Part shown: positions 29,612-35,160 of the stretch, in pieces
Layout of the letters: every line of letters begins with the position of its first letter
Position numbering within the stretch: the stretch's first letter is position 1
NCBI RefSeq assembly: GCF_006334915.2
Contig: NZ_VDMA02000016.1
Location: 124,001-188,000 of the forward strand
DNA from: Microbispora catharanthi
Lineage (GTDB): Bacteria > Actinomycetota > Actinomycetes > Streptosporangiales > Streptosporangiaceae
Direction: 5' to 3'
Length of the DNA: 64,000 bases
Notes under the pieces: generated by a model
Database searches by the model: none
What the model saw: only the letters and a program-made list of their open reading frames with translations
What the model was told of the DNA's origin: nothing
Program-made: the position numbers and the translations under genes

Positions 29612-30306
29612 TCCGCGTCGTGGTCGCCGACGACCAGGCCCTGGTGCGGGCGGGCGTCCGGATGATGCTGGAGGCGGCCGGCGACATGGAGGTGTGCGGG
29701 GAGGCCGCCGACGGGGCCGAGGCCGTACGGCTGGTCGAGCGGCACCGTCCCGACGTGGTGCTGATGGACCTGCGGATGCCGCGCGTCGACGGACTGGAGG
29801 CCACCCGCAGGATCCTCGCCGCCCAGCCGTCCGCCCGGATCGTCGTGCTCACCACGTTCTCCGAGGACGAGAACCTCTACGCCGCGCTGGGCGCGGGCGC
29901 GCTCGGGTTCCTGGTCAAGGACGACCCGCCGGCCCGGATGGTCGAGTCGGTCCGGCGGGCCGCGACGGGGGAGCCTCCGCTCGCGCCGTCGGTGCTGCGG
30001 CGCGTCGTCGAACGGGCCCTGGCGGCCGAGCGGCAGGCGGTGCCGCTTCCGCCGGGTCTCACCGGGCGCGAGGCACAGGTGCTCACCCTGGTCGGGGTCG
30101 GCCTGTCCAACGCGGAGATCGCCGACCGGCTGCACGTGGGGGTCACGACGGTCAAGAGCCATGTCGCCGCGCTCATCGACAAGCTGGGGCTGCGCAACCG
30201 CACCCAGGCGGCGGTGATGGCGCACCGGTTCGGCTTGGTCGACACCGGGTTCACCCCCGTGGCTCCTGCCGGGAGCGACCGGGAGAGCGGCGTCTCCGGC
30301 TCCTGA
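29608..30306 (+). CDS. Response regulator, NarL/LuxR family
   Basis: The 232-residue regulator has a receiver domain with the acidic pocket VVADDQ and phosphoacceptor VVLMDLRMP (Asp about 54), the conserved Thr region VVLTTFSED and Lys in FLVKDD. It is followed by a LuxR-type helix-turn-helix (LTGREAQVLTLVGVGLSNAEIADRL). GTG 29608 overlaps the kinase stop. The last about 20 residues (TPVAPAGSDRESG onward) lie beyond the family domain and match the tail of the ABC exporter at 35.1 kb; the DNA of these tails forms the direct repeats flanking the RiPP cluster. Control of that cluster is plausible by proximity, not shown. Confidence 0.92.
   Translation: MIRVVVADDQALVRAGVRMMLEAAGDMEVCGEAADGAEAVRLVERHRPDVVLMDLRMPRVDGLEATRRILAAQPSARIVVLTTFSEDENLYAALGAGALGFLVKDDPPARMVESVRRAATGEPPLAPSVLRRVVERALAAERQAVPLPPGLTGREAQVLTLVGVGLSNAEIADRLHVGVTTVKSHVAALIDKLGLRNRTQAAVMAHRFGLVDTGFTPVAPAGSDRESGVSGS
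30253..30293 (+). repeat. Direct repeat, left copy flanking the RiPP cluster
   Basis: 41 bp beginning ACCCCCGTGGCTCCTGCC match 35116-35156 at 37 of 41 positions, in the same orientation and the same reading frame at the 3' ends of two unrelated genes. See the right copy. Confidence 0.85.
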
Positions 30307-30590: not shown

Positions 30591-30743
30591 ATGCCCAAGA
30601 TCAGAATCGACGACATCGCGGCGGCCGGCCCGGAGCTCGACGAGGGAGACCTCCGTCTCGTCAACGGCGGCCAGAGGTTCGAGTGGTCGAGCCACGTCAT
30701 CTCCCCGGACGGCAGCATCGACGCCCAGGACCCCGACTTCTGA
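30591..30743 (+). CDS. Putative RiPP precursor peptide (double-glycine leader, ATP-grasp substrate)
   Basis: The 50-residue peptide starts MPKIRIDDIAAAGPELD and has a leader ending in LRLVNGG at residues 21-27, a double-glycine site for a C39 protease. The 23-residue core begins QRFEWSSH and ends AQDPDF. It has three or four serines and five acidic residues but no Cys, Thr or Lys, so Ser-to-Asp/Glu ester links, as in graspetides, are possible while lanthionine chemistry is not. GGAGGG precedes the ATG. The gene is followed within 81 bp by an ATP-grasp enzyme and then a C39 exporter. The match of leader, core composition and neighbours is good; the actual modification is inferred. Confidence 0.78.
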   Translation: MPKIRIDDIAAAGPELDEGDLRLVNGGQRFEWSSHVISPDGSIDAQDPDF

Positions 30744-30823
30744 GCGACCCCTGCCGAGTGACCGCGCGGGGCGCCCTTCCGGCGCCCCGCGCCCCATCGG
30801 GAAGCCAGACCAGGAAGAGCGAG

Positions 30824-31840
30824 ATGTCCGGCGAGATACTCATCCTCACGATCGACGGAGACCCCCATGCGGAGCACGTGGCCCGTCTGCTGGCCGCGCG
30901 GGAGGCGGAAGCGGTCGTCTTCGACCCGGCCGACTATCCGGTCCGCGCGGTGCTCGACGCGGTTTACCACCGTGACGGGCGGGTGCGGCGGCGGCTGCGC
31001 ACGGAGAAGGCGGACGTCGATCTCGATCATCTGACGGCGGTGTGGTTCCGCCGTCCCCAGGCTCCCGTCGCGCATCCCGAGATCGCCGACCCGGTGGCAC
31101 GTGCCCACATAGAGCAGGAGTGCGCGGTGTTCGCCGGGGACCTGTGGGAGCAGCTCGACTGCCGCATGGTGCCCGCGCCCAGGGAACGGGTGCGGCTGGC
31201 CCAGCGCAAGCCGTCACAGCTGGTCCTGGCCGGCCGTCTCGGATTCGAACTGCCGGACACGCTGATCACCAACGACCCCGACGAGTTCCTGGACTTCTTC
31301 AACCGGCACCAGGGCCGCATCATCACCAAGCCCCTGGGCGTTCCCACGAGCCTGCGCGCCGACGGGGAGGGCGTGGCCCGGATGTCGGAACCGGTGTCCA
31401 CCCGGGATATGGCGTACGCGGACGCGATCAGGTTCGGCCCGGTCGTCATCCAGGAGTACGTGCCCAAGCGGGTCGAGCTGCGGGTGACCGTCGTGGGGCG
31501 GGCCGTCTTCGCAGCGGAGATCCACTCACAGGAGAGCAATCACACGAGGCTCGACTGGCGCCGCTACGACCCGGGCAGCACCCGCCATGAGGTGCACGAG
31601 CTGCCGCCGGAGGTGGCCGAGCGCTGCGTGCGGATCGTGCGGCGGCTCGGCCTGTGCTACGGCGCGATCGATCTCATCCTGACCCCCGACGGGCGTTACG
31701 TCTTCCTCGAAGTCAACCCCAGTGGCCAGTGGCTCTGGATCGAGAAGGCCACGGGCCTGCCGATCGGCGCGGCCCTGTGTGATCTGTTGATGTACGGCAC
31801 GGTCGGAGAGGAGACCGCGCATGTTGCCGGACGCCCTTGA
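30824..31840 (+). CDS. MvdD-like ATP-grasp peptide maturase
   Basis: The 338-residue enzyme resembles the ATP-grasp ligases that form ester or amide macrocycles in microviridin-type peptides. Features are an N-terminal Rossmann-like lobe (MSGEILILTIDGDPHAEHV), the family motif LTAVWFRRPQAP, QRKPSQLVLAGRLGFELPDT and the ATP-binding lysine in IITKPLG. VIQEYVPKRVELRVTVVG and the Mg-binding YVFLEVNPSGQWLW complete the active site. These enzymes phosphorylate an acidic side chain of the core and let a Ser, Thr or Lys attack. AGGAAGAG precedes ATG 30824. The 3' end overlaps the next gene by 20 bp, indicating an operon. Confidence 0.88.
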   Translation: MSGEILILTIDGDPHAEHVARLLAAREAEAVVFDPADYPVRAVLDAVYHRDGRVRRRLRTEKADVDLDHLTAVWFRRPQAPVAHPEIADPVARAHIEQECAVFAGDLWEQLDCRMVPAPRERVRLAQRKPSQLVLAGRLGFELPDTLITNDPDEFLDFFNRHQGRIITKPLGVPTSLRADGEGVARMSEPVSTRDMAYADAIRFGPVVIQEYVPKRVELRVTVVGRAVFAAEIHSQESNHTRLDWRRYDPGSTRHEVHELPPEVAERCVRIVRRLGLCYGAIDLILTPDGRYVFLEVNPSGQWLWIEKATGLPIGAALCDLLMYGTVGEETAHVAGRP

Positions 31841-32792
31841 AACCCTCCGCGGCCTGGACGGCGTCGATCCGTCCGAGGCCCAGGAGCGCCTGCGGGAGTT
31901 GCGGGAGCGCCATCCCGGCGTGCGCTTCCGGCTGCTGTGGCAGCGGGAGGACTACGACGACTCGCTCCACTACGACCTTCTGATCAAACGGCCGGGGGAG
32001 GGGACGGTGTCGCTGTCCTGGTGCCCCGACCGTGCCCTGCCCTGGCCCCTGCGGGGTGTGCAGCGGGCCGGCGAGATGCTGCTGCTGCGGATCGACGGAG
32101 TCGGGGTCAAGGTGGTCGACGCGGTCGCCTGGCTCGACTTCCTGTGGGACGAGGCCCGGCTGGTGGACCGGATCATCGCCGCCGCCCTCGTCCAGGCCGA
32201 GATGGAGGAGGCGCCGGTCGAGCTCTCCGACCACGAGATCCAGGAGGCGGTGGACGCGTTCCGGCGCGCCCGGGGACTGCTCACCGCCGAACGGACGCGC
32301 GAGTGGATGGACCGCCGCTCCCTCACCGTCGTGGACCTCCAGGAGTTGGTCGCGGGGGAGGTGGCCGCCGCCCGCGTCCGCGAGCGGGTGACGGCCGGAC
32401 GGGTCGAGCCGTACTTCGAGGAGCACCGGGAGGAGTTCGGCACGGCCCGGGTCGCCCGCCTCACCTTCCCCGACTCCGAGGCGGCCCGGCGGGCGGCGGC
32501 CGAGATCGACGCCGGAGCCGGCTTCTTCGCGCTGGCGGAGCGGACGCGCGGCGCCCGGCTGGTCGTCGAGGACGTGCCCGCGGCCGAGACGGGCACCGCC
32601 CGCCCCGGCGACGTCGTCTCGCCCGCCCCGGACGTCCTGCTCAAGGTGATCTCCGTGGCCGGCGCCGAGCTCGACGCGGACACGCGCCGCCGCGTCGAAC
32701 GGCGGGTCTTCGACCTGTGGATCGATGAACGCCGCCGGGCCGCGAAGATCGAATGGTTCTGGGGAACCACGGCGCGGACCGGCACGCTGTGA
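31821..32792 (+). CDS. PpiC-related putative peptide maturation protein
   Basis: The 323-residue protein has an N-terminal domain of unknown type (VRFRLLWQREDYDDSLHYDLL, then TVSLSWCPDRALPWPL). A helical middle and a C-terminal half resembling parvulin-type PpiC isomerases follow: YFEEHREEFGTARVARLTF, GAGFFALAERT, and a terminal SVAGAELDADTRRRV-AKIEWFWG. I recall such proteins as a family annotated as putative peptide-maturation components near RiPP genes, but no chemistry is established. It may chaperone or isomerise the precursor or scaffold the ligase. GGAGAGGAG lies ahead of ATG 31821, inside the ATP-grasp gene, and its stop overlaps the next GTG. Confidence 0.75.
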   Translation: MLPDALETLRGLDGVDPSEAQERLRELRERHPGVRFRLLWQREDYDDSLHYDLLIKRPGEGTVSLSWCPDRALPWPLRGVQRAGEMLLLRIDGVGVKVVDAVAWLDFLWDEARLVDRIIAAALVQAEMEEAPVELSDHEIQEAVDAFRRARGLLTAERTREWMDRRSLTVVDLQELVAGEVAAARVRERVTAGRVEPYFEEHREEFGTARVARLTFPDSEAARRAAAEIDAGAGFFALAERTRGARLVVEDVPAAETGTARPGDVVSPAPDVLLKVISVAGAELDADTRRRVERRVFDLWIDERRRAAKIEWFWGTTARTGTL

Positions 32793-32965
32793 ACAGGCAG
32801 ATCTTCCGTGCCGAGGCGCTGCGCCGCCATGCCGCACCGCCGTCCGCCCCGGCCGCTGTCAAGGAGGTCGGCAACCGTAGCCTCGTCCTGCTCTGGTGCG
32901 CGGTCGCGGTGCTCACCTCGGGGCTGGCCGTTCTCACCGCTCTGGTCCTGAGGGGTGGCGGGTGA
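32789..32965 (+). CDS. Single-span membrane protein of the RiPP cluster (HlyD N-terminus-like)
   Basis: The 58-residue protein starts at GTG 32789, overlapping the previous stop, and ends overlapping the exporter GTG. It has a basic N-terminus (NRQIFRAEALRRHAAPPS), then one transmembrane helix (SLVLLWCAVAVLTSGLAVLTALVL) and stops after three residues. This looks like only the membrane-anchoring start of a HlyD-type adaptor, whose periplasmic coiled coil and lipoyl domains are absent. In a Gram-positive host a short anchor could serve as an exporter accessory. Function unknown. Confidence 0.7.
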   Translation: MNRQIFRAEALRRHAAPPSAPAAVKEVGNRSLVLLWCAVAVLTSGLAVLTALVLRGGG

Positions 32966-35160
32966 GACGGGTCCCGGTCTTTCTGCAGAACTCGGCGACC
33001 GAGTGCGGCGCGGCCTGCCTGGCCGTGATCCTGTCCTTCCACGGCCACCGCACCACCGTGCAGGAGGTCACCGACCACCTCCAAGTGGGCAGGGACGGCC
33101 TGAGCGCGCTGGCCATCGTCCGCGCCGCGCGGGAGTTCGGCCTGAACGCCAAGGCGTTCTCGCTGGATCCGGCCGACCTCGGGCGGGTGCCCATGCCCGC
33201 GATCGTCCACTGGGAGTTCCAGCACTTCGTGGTGGTGGAGCGGTGGACGCCCGATCACGTGGACATCGTGGACCCCGGCCAGGGACGCAGGCGGCTCACG
33301 CCCGCCGAGTTCGACGCCGGCTTCACCGGCGTGCTGCTGGCGTTCGAGCCGGAGCCTGGGTTCCGCCAGGTGCGGTCCAGCGCCGCGCGGGCGTGGCGGC
33401 GCGACTTCCTGCGCGCCCTGGTGTTCCGCAGGAAGGGCCTGCTCGCCCAGGTGGTCGCGGCCTCGATGCTGCTCCAGGTGCTCGGCCTCGGGCTCGCGAC
33501 GGCGTTCCAGATCGTCGTCGACCGGATCCTCCCGCACGGGGGCTCCGGGCTTCTCTCGCTCCTCGGCGTGGCCGTGCTGGTCGCCGTGGTCACCCAGTTC
33601 GCGGTGAGCTACCTGCGTTCGGTGCTGCTCGTCGCGCTCCGCTCGCGCACCGACGGCGAGGTGACGCGGAACCTGGTGTCGCACCTTGTCGCGCTGCCGT
33701 ACCGGTACTTCGCGGTGCGCGGCAAGGGAGACCTGGTGAACCGATCGAACAGCGTCATCGCCCTGCGCGAGACGCTGACCGGGCAGATTCTCTCATCGTT
33801 GCTCGACGGGCCGCTCGCCCTGGTCTACCTGCTGCTCGTCTTCGCCCGGGACCCGGTCTTCGGCGGCTTCCTCGCGCTGCTCGCCGCGGGGCAGGCCGCC
33901 CTCCTGCTCGGCACCGCCCGCCGGGTGGGCGACCTGACCAGGCGCGAGCTGGCCGCTCTCGCCGTCACGCAGGGCCGGCTCATGGAGGCCGTCGGCGGCA
34001 TCGAGACGCTCAAGGCGTCCGGGGCCGAGCCGCGGGCGATGCAGCGCTGGTCGGACCTGTTCGCCCGGCAACTCGACGCCGACGTGCGGGGAGGGCTCGT
34101 CCGGGGGCTCATCGAGGCGGCGCTCGGGGCGGTGCGCTATCTCGCGCCGCTGGGGCTGCTGTGGGTCGGCGCGTGGCGGGTGCTCGACGGGTCGCTGAGC
34201 CTCGGGACGCTGCTCGCGCTGAACGCCCTGGCCACCGCCGCGCTCACCCCGATCGGCTCGCTGATGACCAGCCTGCGCAGCCTTCAGCAGGCCGGGGCGC
34301 ACTTCGACCGGCTGTCGGACATCCTCGCCTCCGAGCCCGAGCCGTCCACGGGGATCGAGGTGCTGCGGCTGCGCGGCGGCATCGAGCTGCGCGGGGTGGG
34401 TTTCCGACACGACCCGCGCGGCCCGTGGACGCTGCGCGACGTCTCACTGGTCGTACGGCCGGGGCAGAAGGTCGCGCTGGTCGGTCCCTCTGGGTCGGGC
34501 AAGAGCACGCTCGCCCGCCTCCTGCTCGCCCTGTACCAGCCGACGACCGGGGAGATCCGATACGACGGCGTTCCCGCGGCCGAGCTCAACCCGCGATCGC
34601 TGCGCCGCCAGTTCGGCGTGGTCACCCAGGAGCCGTCGCTGTTCACCGGGACGATCCGGGAGAACATCGCACTCAACTTCCCCGAGGCCGGCATGGACCG
34701 GATCGCCGAGGCGGCCCGGCTCGCCGCCCTGCACGACGAGATCATGGCGATGCCGATGGGCTACGAGACGATCCTGGTCGAGGGCGGCGGCCTGTCGGGT
34801 GGACAGCGCCAGCGCCTCGCCCTGGCCCGCGCGCTGCTGCCCCGCCCCAAGGTGCTGCTGCTCGACGAGGCGACCAGCAACCTGGACAGTGCGACCGAGG
34901 CCGACATCGAGGCGCGGCTGTCCCGCCTGACGCAGACCCGCATCGTGATCGCGCACCGGCTGAGCACGGTGCGGGACGCCGACCTGATCCTGGTCGTCGA
35001 GCGGGGCACGGTGGTGGAGCGGGGCACCCACGAGGAGCTGCTGGCCCTGGGTGGGCGCTACACCCGACTCGTCGCCGCGCAAACGGCCTCCACCCAGGCC
35101 GGCACCCGTAGGCGAACCCCCGTGGCTCCTGCCCGGATCGACAGGGAGAGCGGCATGTAG
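32962..35160 (+). CDS. Peptidase-containing ABC transporter (C39 protease, leader cleavage and export)
   Basis: The 732-residue exporter has three parts. The N-terminal C39 protease has Cys15 in SATECGAACL, His in VHWEFQHFVVVE (about 87-97) and Asp in VDIVDPGQG (about 110). A six-helix ABC transmembrane domain covers about 155-420. The ATPase has Walker A GPSGSGKST (about 508), LSGGQRQRLALARALL and Walker B KVLLLDEATSNLD. It cleaves after the double glycine of the precursor and exports the core. GTG 32962 overlaps the preceding stop and places the Cys at the usual distance from the N-terminus. The last 15 residues (RTPVAPARIDRESGM) match the response-regulator tail, forming the right flanking repeat. 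The TAG stop is also the first half of the next gene's TAGGGT -10. Confidence 0.93.
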   Translation: MRRVPVFLQNSATECGAACLAVILSFHGHRTTVQEVTDHLQVGRDGLSALAIVRAAREFGLNAKAFSLDPADLGRVPMPAIVHWEFQHFVVVERWTPDHVDIVDPGQGRRRLTPAEFDAGFTGVLLAFEPEPGFRQVRSSAARAWRRDFLRALVFRRKGLLAQVVAASMLLQVLGLGLATAFQIVVDRILPHGGSGLLSLLGVAVLVAVVTQFAVSYLRSVLLVALRSRTDGEVTRNLVSHLVALPYRYFAVRGKGDLVNRSNSVIALRETLTGQILSSLLDGPLALVYLLLVFARDPVFGGFLALLAAGQAALLLGTARRVGDLTRRELAALAVTQGRLMEAVGGIETLKASGAEPRAMQRWSDLFARQLDADVRGGLVRGLIEAALGAVRYLAPLGLLWVGAWRVLDGSLSLGTLLALNALATAALTPIGSLMTSLRSLQQAGAHFDRLSDILASEPEPSTGIEVLRLRGGIELRGVGFRHDPRGPWTLRDVSLVVRPGQKVALVGPSGSGKSTLARLLLALYQPTTGEIRYDGVPAAELNPRSLRRQFGVVTQEPSLFTGTIRENIALNFPEAGMDRIAEAARLAALHDEIMAMPMGYETILVEGGGLSGGQRQRLALARALLPRPKVLLLDEATSNLDSATEADIEARLSRLTQTRIVIAHRLSTVRDADLILVVERGTVVERGTHEELLALGGRYTRLVAAQTASTQAGTRRRTPVAPARIDRESGM
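35116..35156 (+). repeat. Direct repeat, right copy flanking the RiPP cluster
   Basis: This 41-bp copy matches 30253-30293 with four mismatches and encodes TPVAPARIDRESG at the exporter C-terminus. The two copies lie 4.86 kb apart and bracket exactly the precursor-to-exporter block. This suggests insertion of the cluster with duplication of a target, or recombination between the repeats; a small mobile repeat element is the alternative. Confidence 0.85.

Follow-up and report, generated by a model that had tools for sequence, protein, structure and literature searches.

Rosaritide, a group 21 graspetide made by Micromonospora rosaria (Carter et al. 2026, PMC13097080), comes from the closest described system to the one reported here, the mir cluster. 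In the sections of that paper on which we draw, the ligase MirB is inactive without the PpiC-like protein MirC (TIGR04500), both domains of MirC are needed, and the two proteins copurify as an active complex, a dependence of ligase on partner that, according to its authors, had been seen for no other characterised graspetide (PMC13097080). The same sections give rosaritide three macrolactones, Ser8-Asp22, Ser9-Asp26 and Thr11-Asp24, and name Cj1289 as the nearest structure for MirC; section 8 labels the alanine variants D12A/D13A but the residues Asp13/Asp14, and the residue names are followed here (PMC13097080). TIGR04500 also stands, with 40 occurrences, among the ATP-grasp-linked families in the consulted part of an earlier survey (PMC8939145). 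Here we analyze a stretch of 64,000 nucleotides from the actinomycete Microbispora catharanthi (RefSeq assembly GCF_006334915.2, contig NZ_VDMA02000016.1, positions 124,001 to 188,000; the whole stretch is called the window, and its own numbering is used throughout), in which a compact operon at 30591-35160 very probably directs, taken as a whole, the synthesis of a partner-dependent graspetide of the rosaritide kind.

As the preliminary description of this DNA had proposed, the operon consists of five frames in the same direction, all of them open in the window, with overlaps of 20 nucleotides between ligase and partner and of 4 nucleotides both between partner and single-span protein and between single-span protein and exporter (Table 1). 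Ligase, partner and exporter are spaced identically in each of the six Microbispora clusters that we compared, the window included, and the precursor frame has the same length and a double-glycine (GG) leader throughout. The locus is a real, open and conserved operon, and its gene content, homology, conservation and core pattern are observed in the window system itself. Family models agree with the initial view that it encodes a ribosomally synthesized and post-translationally modified peptide of the ATP-grasp (graspetide) type, together with a PpiC-related partner protein and an exporter carrying a C39 peptidase. The partner matches TIGR04500 with 323 bits, passing the cutoff of 180, and the precursor barely passes that of TIGR04497 (32.3 bits against 32). 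Peptidase_C39, ABC_membrane and ABC_tran are above the Pfam cutoffs in the exporter, as are the MvdD pre-ATP-grasp and RimK domains in the ligase. The latter retains the DWR (residues 244-246) and ExNP (residues 296-299) motifs when aligned to a rosaritide-like ligase, and the solved chains nearest to it are 5ig8 (ATP grasp ligase), 7m4s (AMdnB), 5ig9 and 7mgv (CdnC). It had earlier been designated MvdD-like, but the closer model is TIGR04187 (259 bits, with MvdD second at 217). The operon has what is expected of a graspetide locus: an MvdD/TIGR04187-type synthetase with its catalytic motif and, next to it, a leader followed by a core of potential donors and acceptors (23 residues, of which four are Ser and five acidic). 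It shares with group 21 the co-occurring TIGR04500 partner.

Table 1. The five genes of the operon and the direct repeat around it, in window coordinates
Feature	Position	Strand	Details
Precursor peptide, 50 residues	30591..30743	+	Leader MPKIRIDDIAAAGPELDEGDLRLVNGG, 23-residue core QRFEWSSHVISPDGSIDAQDPDF; GG is residues 26-27
Graspetide synthetase (ATP-grasp ligase), MirB-like	30824..31840	+	TIGR04187, Pfam domains, DWR/ExNP
PpiC-related partner, MirC-like	31821..32792	+	TIGR04500, AlphaFold2 model, Foldseek
Single-span protein, 58 residues	32789..32965	+	GTG start; begins MNRQIFRAEALRRH; one hydrophobic stretch
Peptidase-containing ABC exporter, MirD-like	32962..35160	+	GTG start; C39 peptidase, ABC membrane and ATPase parts
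39-nucleotide direct repeat, left copy	30253..30291		3' end of response-regulator gene
39-nucleotide direct repeat, right copy	35116..35154		Within the 3' end of the exporter gene

The window's genome (9.25 Mb) has Microbispora siamensis, M. triticiradicis, M. rosea and M. amethystogenes as its closest named kin. Among 341 genomes of the window's family, 44 have a partner match at E 1e-25 and nine a window-type partner with at least 62% identity; six of these nine are Microbispora, a genus represented by 15 genomes in the sample. The set of loci analyzed comprises 89 (designated by L-numbers), of which 80 have a ligase match and 70 of these a precursor profile match; L116, L119, L123, L127 and L190 were dropped as lying on the same contigs as L004, L007, L008, L009 and L010. 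For both the precursor and the single-span protein, the profile was built up in rounds from the very open reading frames that it later scored, and the precursor profile missed at least the precursors of L132 and L180, which were found by pattern. These two loci come from the two genomes, among 200 of the family of G353, that have a TIGR04500 match above cutoff, and their precursors contain all the MirA core residues named in the consulted sections of PMC13097080 except position 25 (Thr for Ser), so that they could be used as rosaritide proxies. A third genome, with a TIGR04500 match under the cutoff, contributes L181, whose core is related, and L132, L180 and L181 stand in for MirA/MirB in the sequence comparisons.

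Like the mir cluster, the window operon combines a precursor, a TIGR04187-type ligase, a TIGR04500 partner and a TIGR03796-type exporter, and the presence of all four families in one overlapping operon supports a graspetide of the rosaritide kind. The window ligase is 50-52% identical to those of the proxies and, with these standing in for MirB, gives scores in the style of a sequence similarity network (SSN) of 78, 80 and 82 against L132, L181 and L180; an alignment score of 70 is the group threshold in the consulted part of PMC13097080. In a tree of the 80 ligases the nine window-type enzymes form one clade (98/95) apart from the proxies. The precursors share a GG leader, an adjacent Ser pair and D-x-D-F near the end of the core (the last read from L132 and L180), but the window core, QRFEWSSHVISPDGSIDAQDPDF, and the proxy core, LPRNGAGSSKTIDDIPGGGRPDTDTDFD, differ in pattern: the window has donors S-S-x-V-x-S rather than S-S-x-T, acids D-x-x-D-x-D rather than D-x-D-x-D, and 23 residues rather than at least 26, and rosaritide's own donor and acceptor spacing (S8 S9 T11; D22 D24 D26) does not occur in it. 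The gene for the 58-residue single-span protein is an addition to both the mir cluster, as described in the consulted sections, and the three proxies. Judged by its gene families, this is not a cluster of unknown kind, the mir cluster having the same four; it is the core pattern that differs. Next to the mir system, the window operon provides another, diverged case on which the synthesis of graspetides with a partner protein can be tested. The ester-linked product suggested earlier is probable and is itself undescribed in the literature searched, which lay mostly outside subscription papers, in which graspetides were nowhere found together with Microbispora or Streptosporangi, and of which a single paper names rosaritide.

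Several observations weigh against this assignment. The ligase is below the TIGR04187 cutoff of 350 bits (as is a rosaritide proxy ligase, with 236), the exporter reaches 610 bits with its best model, TIGR03796, for a cutoff of 853, and the precursor from Acrocarpospora scores 20.8 against the TIGR04497 cutoff of 32. At an SSN score of 70 all 80 ligases fall into one component, so that this threshold provides no discrimination. The place of the third rosaritide donor, Thr11, is taken by Val in all nine window-type cores; in L182, which diverges furthest among them, Asp rather than Ser/Thr stands two residues past that Val. No rosaritide acid is spaced like Asp17, and position 17 is Trp in Acrocarpospora and Herbidospora, which nevertheless have three C-terminal Asp residues (19, 21 and 22). 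For the precursor frame taken as a whole, the ratio of nonsynonymous to synonymous polymorphism (pN/pS) among the six Microbispora is 1.03, so that purifying selection is not apparent at this level. Finally, the AlphaFold2 model of the window partner is of moderate confidence (predicted local distance difference test score, pLDDT, of 69.8), and its Foldseek matches have query template modelling (TM) scores of 0.19-0.34.

By analogy with the homologous mir system, for which the partner requirement and the ester chemistry have been established, the PpiC-related protein would act as a dedicated chaperone or adaptor bound to the ATP-grasp ligase, and together they would phosphorylate the side chains of Asp residues in the C-terminal part of the core, which would then be closed onto the hydroxyls of Ser residues in its N-terminal half as macrolactones. 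The likeliest product would have three esters linking Ser6, Ser7 and Ser11 with Asp17, Asp20 and Asp22, with a loss of 54 Da and, following rosaritide, Ser7-Asp22 as the outer ring. That the esters number exactly three is a prediction whose chances we consider evenly balanced, and the ring connectivity given here is likewise predicted. For the mature core the calculated [M+H]+ is 2633.19 unmodified, 2597.17 after closure of two rings and 2579.16 after closure of three. Cleavage after the GG and export of the product would presumably fall to the exporter, which the single-span protein may assist. It is conceivable, if somewhat unlikely, that there are just two rings, joining Ser6/Ser7 to Asp20/Asp22 of the DxDF end with a loss of 36 Da, and that Ser11 and Asp17 serve in folding or binding. 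The Val at the Thr11 place, along with the absence of a later Ser/Thr from L182, allows for two rings or for a different third donor, and all that the window-type and rosaritide-like cores have in common is an adjacent hydroxyl pair and D-x-D-F/D-D-F near the end. However, Ser/Thr is found two residues past the Val, at position 11, in eight of the nine window-type cores, encoded as Ser by TCC in the window and by AGC in M. rosea and as Thr by ACC in the other four Microbispora, and Asp17 is invariant in all six Microbispora cores. Ser/Thr at positions 6, 7 and 11 is also retained in Herbidospora and Acrocarpospora.

The preliminary description had suggested a search for orthologous clusters and conserved core positions, and had reckoned with the 50-residue frame not being conserved as a gene; the frame is present in all six Microbispora clusters with a conserved leader, and each of the nine core positions with Ser, Thr, Asp or Glu keeps its chemical class in them, whereas seven of the other 14 vary. 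Altogether 13 of the 23 core positions are invariant among the six, and those which vary within their class have E/D at 4, S/T at 11 and S/T at 15 (Thr at 11 in four cores and at 15 in two). The probability of such class-keeping changes by chance is 0.004-0.011, as estimated post hoc on the assumption of four independent events. Lys occurs at positions 2 and 19 in four of the six, so the lack of Thr and Lys noted at the outset is true of the window core but does not characterise the class, as close siblings have both. In the Herbidospora core Asp13 is replaced by Ser. The pN/pS of 1.03 for the whole frame results from variation of the core: the leader alone has a value of 0.28, with four amino-acid changes to five synonymous ones, as against ten to one in the core (one tally has no synonymous change there, the other counts the TCC/AGC Ser pair). 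With six related sequences, the difference between leader and core (Fisher p = 0.0498) is only suggestive. We read these small numbers as pointing to a core that varies freely apart from its putative linking side chains.

The PpiC-like partner had initially been regarded as a protein without established chemistry; given that MirC is required by MirB and copurifies with it, according to the consulted sections of PMC13097080, its role can no longer be treated as unknown. The window partner is composed of an N-terminal domain, SurA-like helices, a parvulin-like part (about residues 195-281) and a long C-terminal helix. When seven partners are aligned (L009 left out), invariant columns make up 44 of 97 for the N-terminal domain, 49 of 97 for the helices that follow, 23 of 42 for the C-terminal helix and 18 of 87 for the parvulin-like part, which is the least conserved region. 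It is missing altogether from two of 29 measurable partners, those of Acrocarpospora L009 (an in-frame absence) and L181: the anchor-to-anchor length, obtained with a pattern that gave a value for 29 of the 80 ligase-linked partners and none for 51, is 203-232 residues in 26 of them, 136 in L009, 107 in L181 and 359 in L201. An AlphaFold2 model of the short L009 protein (pLDDT 66.7) retains the N-terminal domain and helices and is devoid of the later strands. The best Foldseek matches of the window partner model are SurA, Cj1289 (3rgc) and PrsA, with 17 matches at E up to 0.001; a sequence search of solved structures with the partner yielded nothing significant.

Because some relatives lack the parvulin-like part, the partner, as modelled, fits a chaperone or adaptor better than a needed isomerase. 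That it should be a working prolyl isomerase setting the cis/trans state of proline in the core is very improbable: the TIGR04500 family is named PpiC-related, Pfam Rotamase_2 has a weak match below its cutoff (E 0.015) at residues 190-242, the Foldseek matches extend to complete chains of SurA and PrsA, which contain parvulin domains, and this strain's core has Pro12 and Pro21, but Pro21 is Leu in four of the six Microbispora cores and the parvulin-like part is both the least conserved and missing from two of the 29 measurable partners. The natural partners devoid of it render the role of this protein, whether chaperone, adaptor or isomerase, directly testable.

Homologs of the single-span protein lie between partner and exporter in all nine window-type clusters, although those of Herbidospora and Acrocarpospora give weak scores (34 and 40 bits), and in 33 of the 80 ligase loci overall; the protein itself has no match among the Pfam or NCBIfam models. 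From its position it is possibly an accessory of the exporter. Immediately ahead of the hydrophobic stretch it has the motif FRxEAxxRHxxP, which resembles the start of an NHLM HlyD-like protein in L223. This raises the alternative that, rather than being an unrelated small accessory, it is a reduced N-terminal piece of the HlyD-type adaptor of an NHLM exporter, which the adjacency of the exporter gene, the motif in common with that one TIGR03794-like protein and the existence of longer versions (173 and 179 residues, in L113 and L120) would favor. We consider this doubtful and the HlyD fragment not supported, as the E value of 0.76 for L223 in the profile comparison is not significant and is bettered by that of an unrelated-looking frame (0.29), none of the NCBIfam models fits the longer versions and single-span homologs are absent from all three rosaritide-like clusters. 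The most specific combined picture, namely a three-ester graspetide of undescribed topology with its third donor two residues past the place given by SSxT, a parvulin-derived chaperone partner with a dispensable parvulin-like part that certain relatives have lost, and a single-span export subunit of a new type docking the exporter to the ligase-partner complex, is rather unlikely to be right in all of its elements at once.

Of 150 genomes sampled from the family of the window, 35 have TIGR04500 above cutoff; the figures are 14 of 394 for its class and two of 396 for its phylum, the window's genome being counted in each. In all nine cluster-less Microbispora (seven of them read letter by letter) the response-regulator and cardiolipin synthase genes are immediate neighbors, in that order, and in all six cluster-bearing ones the cluster lies between these two genes. 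The two copies of the 39-nucleotide repeat are 92% identical; at about 70-84% identity, repeats abound in this GC-rich DNA (35 families), and only this pair was used. The exporter tail matches the empty-site sequence of the cluster-less Microbispora, and longer remnants of the response-regulator gene are present to the right of the cluster in M. siamensis and M. rosea. The last 14 codons and stop of the exporter in the window are thus the old end of the regulator gene, and the cluster seems to have been inserted there, duplicating part of its target gene.

The occurrence of the cluster in just six of 15 Microbispora genomes, and the pN/pS of its precursor frame as a whole, might also be expected of a remnant or inactive cluster in the course of being lost, but the open frames, the identical spacing in six clusters, the constrained leader and the class-keeping of the linking-type core residues make this exceedingly improbable. 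The neighboring two-component system was rejected as a part of the cluster, its response regulator being present in cluster-less Microbispora (the kinase was outside that comparison). An anti-phage role is likewise unsupported: PADLOC has no model for the ligase or partner, and its matches to the exporter (mad3 and mad8) are confined to the ATPase part. A search of viral contigs, sensitive to close relatives only, found no relatives of the partner.

Microviridin clusters use two ligases, and their enzymes (MdnB/MdnC, MvdD) belong to the same ATP-grasp macrocyclase family as the window ligase. Their leaders differ from that of the window system in having the motif PFFARFL, as given in the consulted part of PMC8939145. 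Other TIGR04500-linked ATP-grasp clusters of the Streptosporangiaceae have in common with the window the ligase-partner pair and related GG leaders, but their cores are very different, being of the AKSQVI type (Nonomuraea, L010), the SVSWKIGGKPAEW type or the DPPGxC type, and their ligases lie in separate clades of the tree; the TIGR04500-ligase pair thus accompanies widely divergent cores across this family. In L071 and L106-L110 between two and four tandem precursors, whose cores contain Cys and are of the DPPGxC type, go with a single ligase-partner pair, and the exporter gene is on the far side of the ligase. The window's genome has a second ligase-TIGR04500 pair (L084, G000:C19:99476-100423), near which no precursor or exporter was found, and L082 has a similar pair; the frames adjoining that of L084 encode what we take to be 2-oxoacid dehydrogenase subunits. 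TIGR04500-like proteins also occur in L077, L083, L087, L099, L100, L101, L102, L124 and L125, where the retrieved stretch has no ATP-grasp ligase match, and in several of seven such loci the neighboring frames presumably likewise encode 2-oxoacid dehydrogenase subunits, which they resemble.

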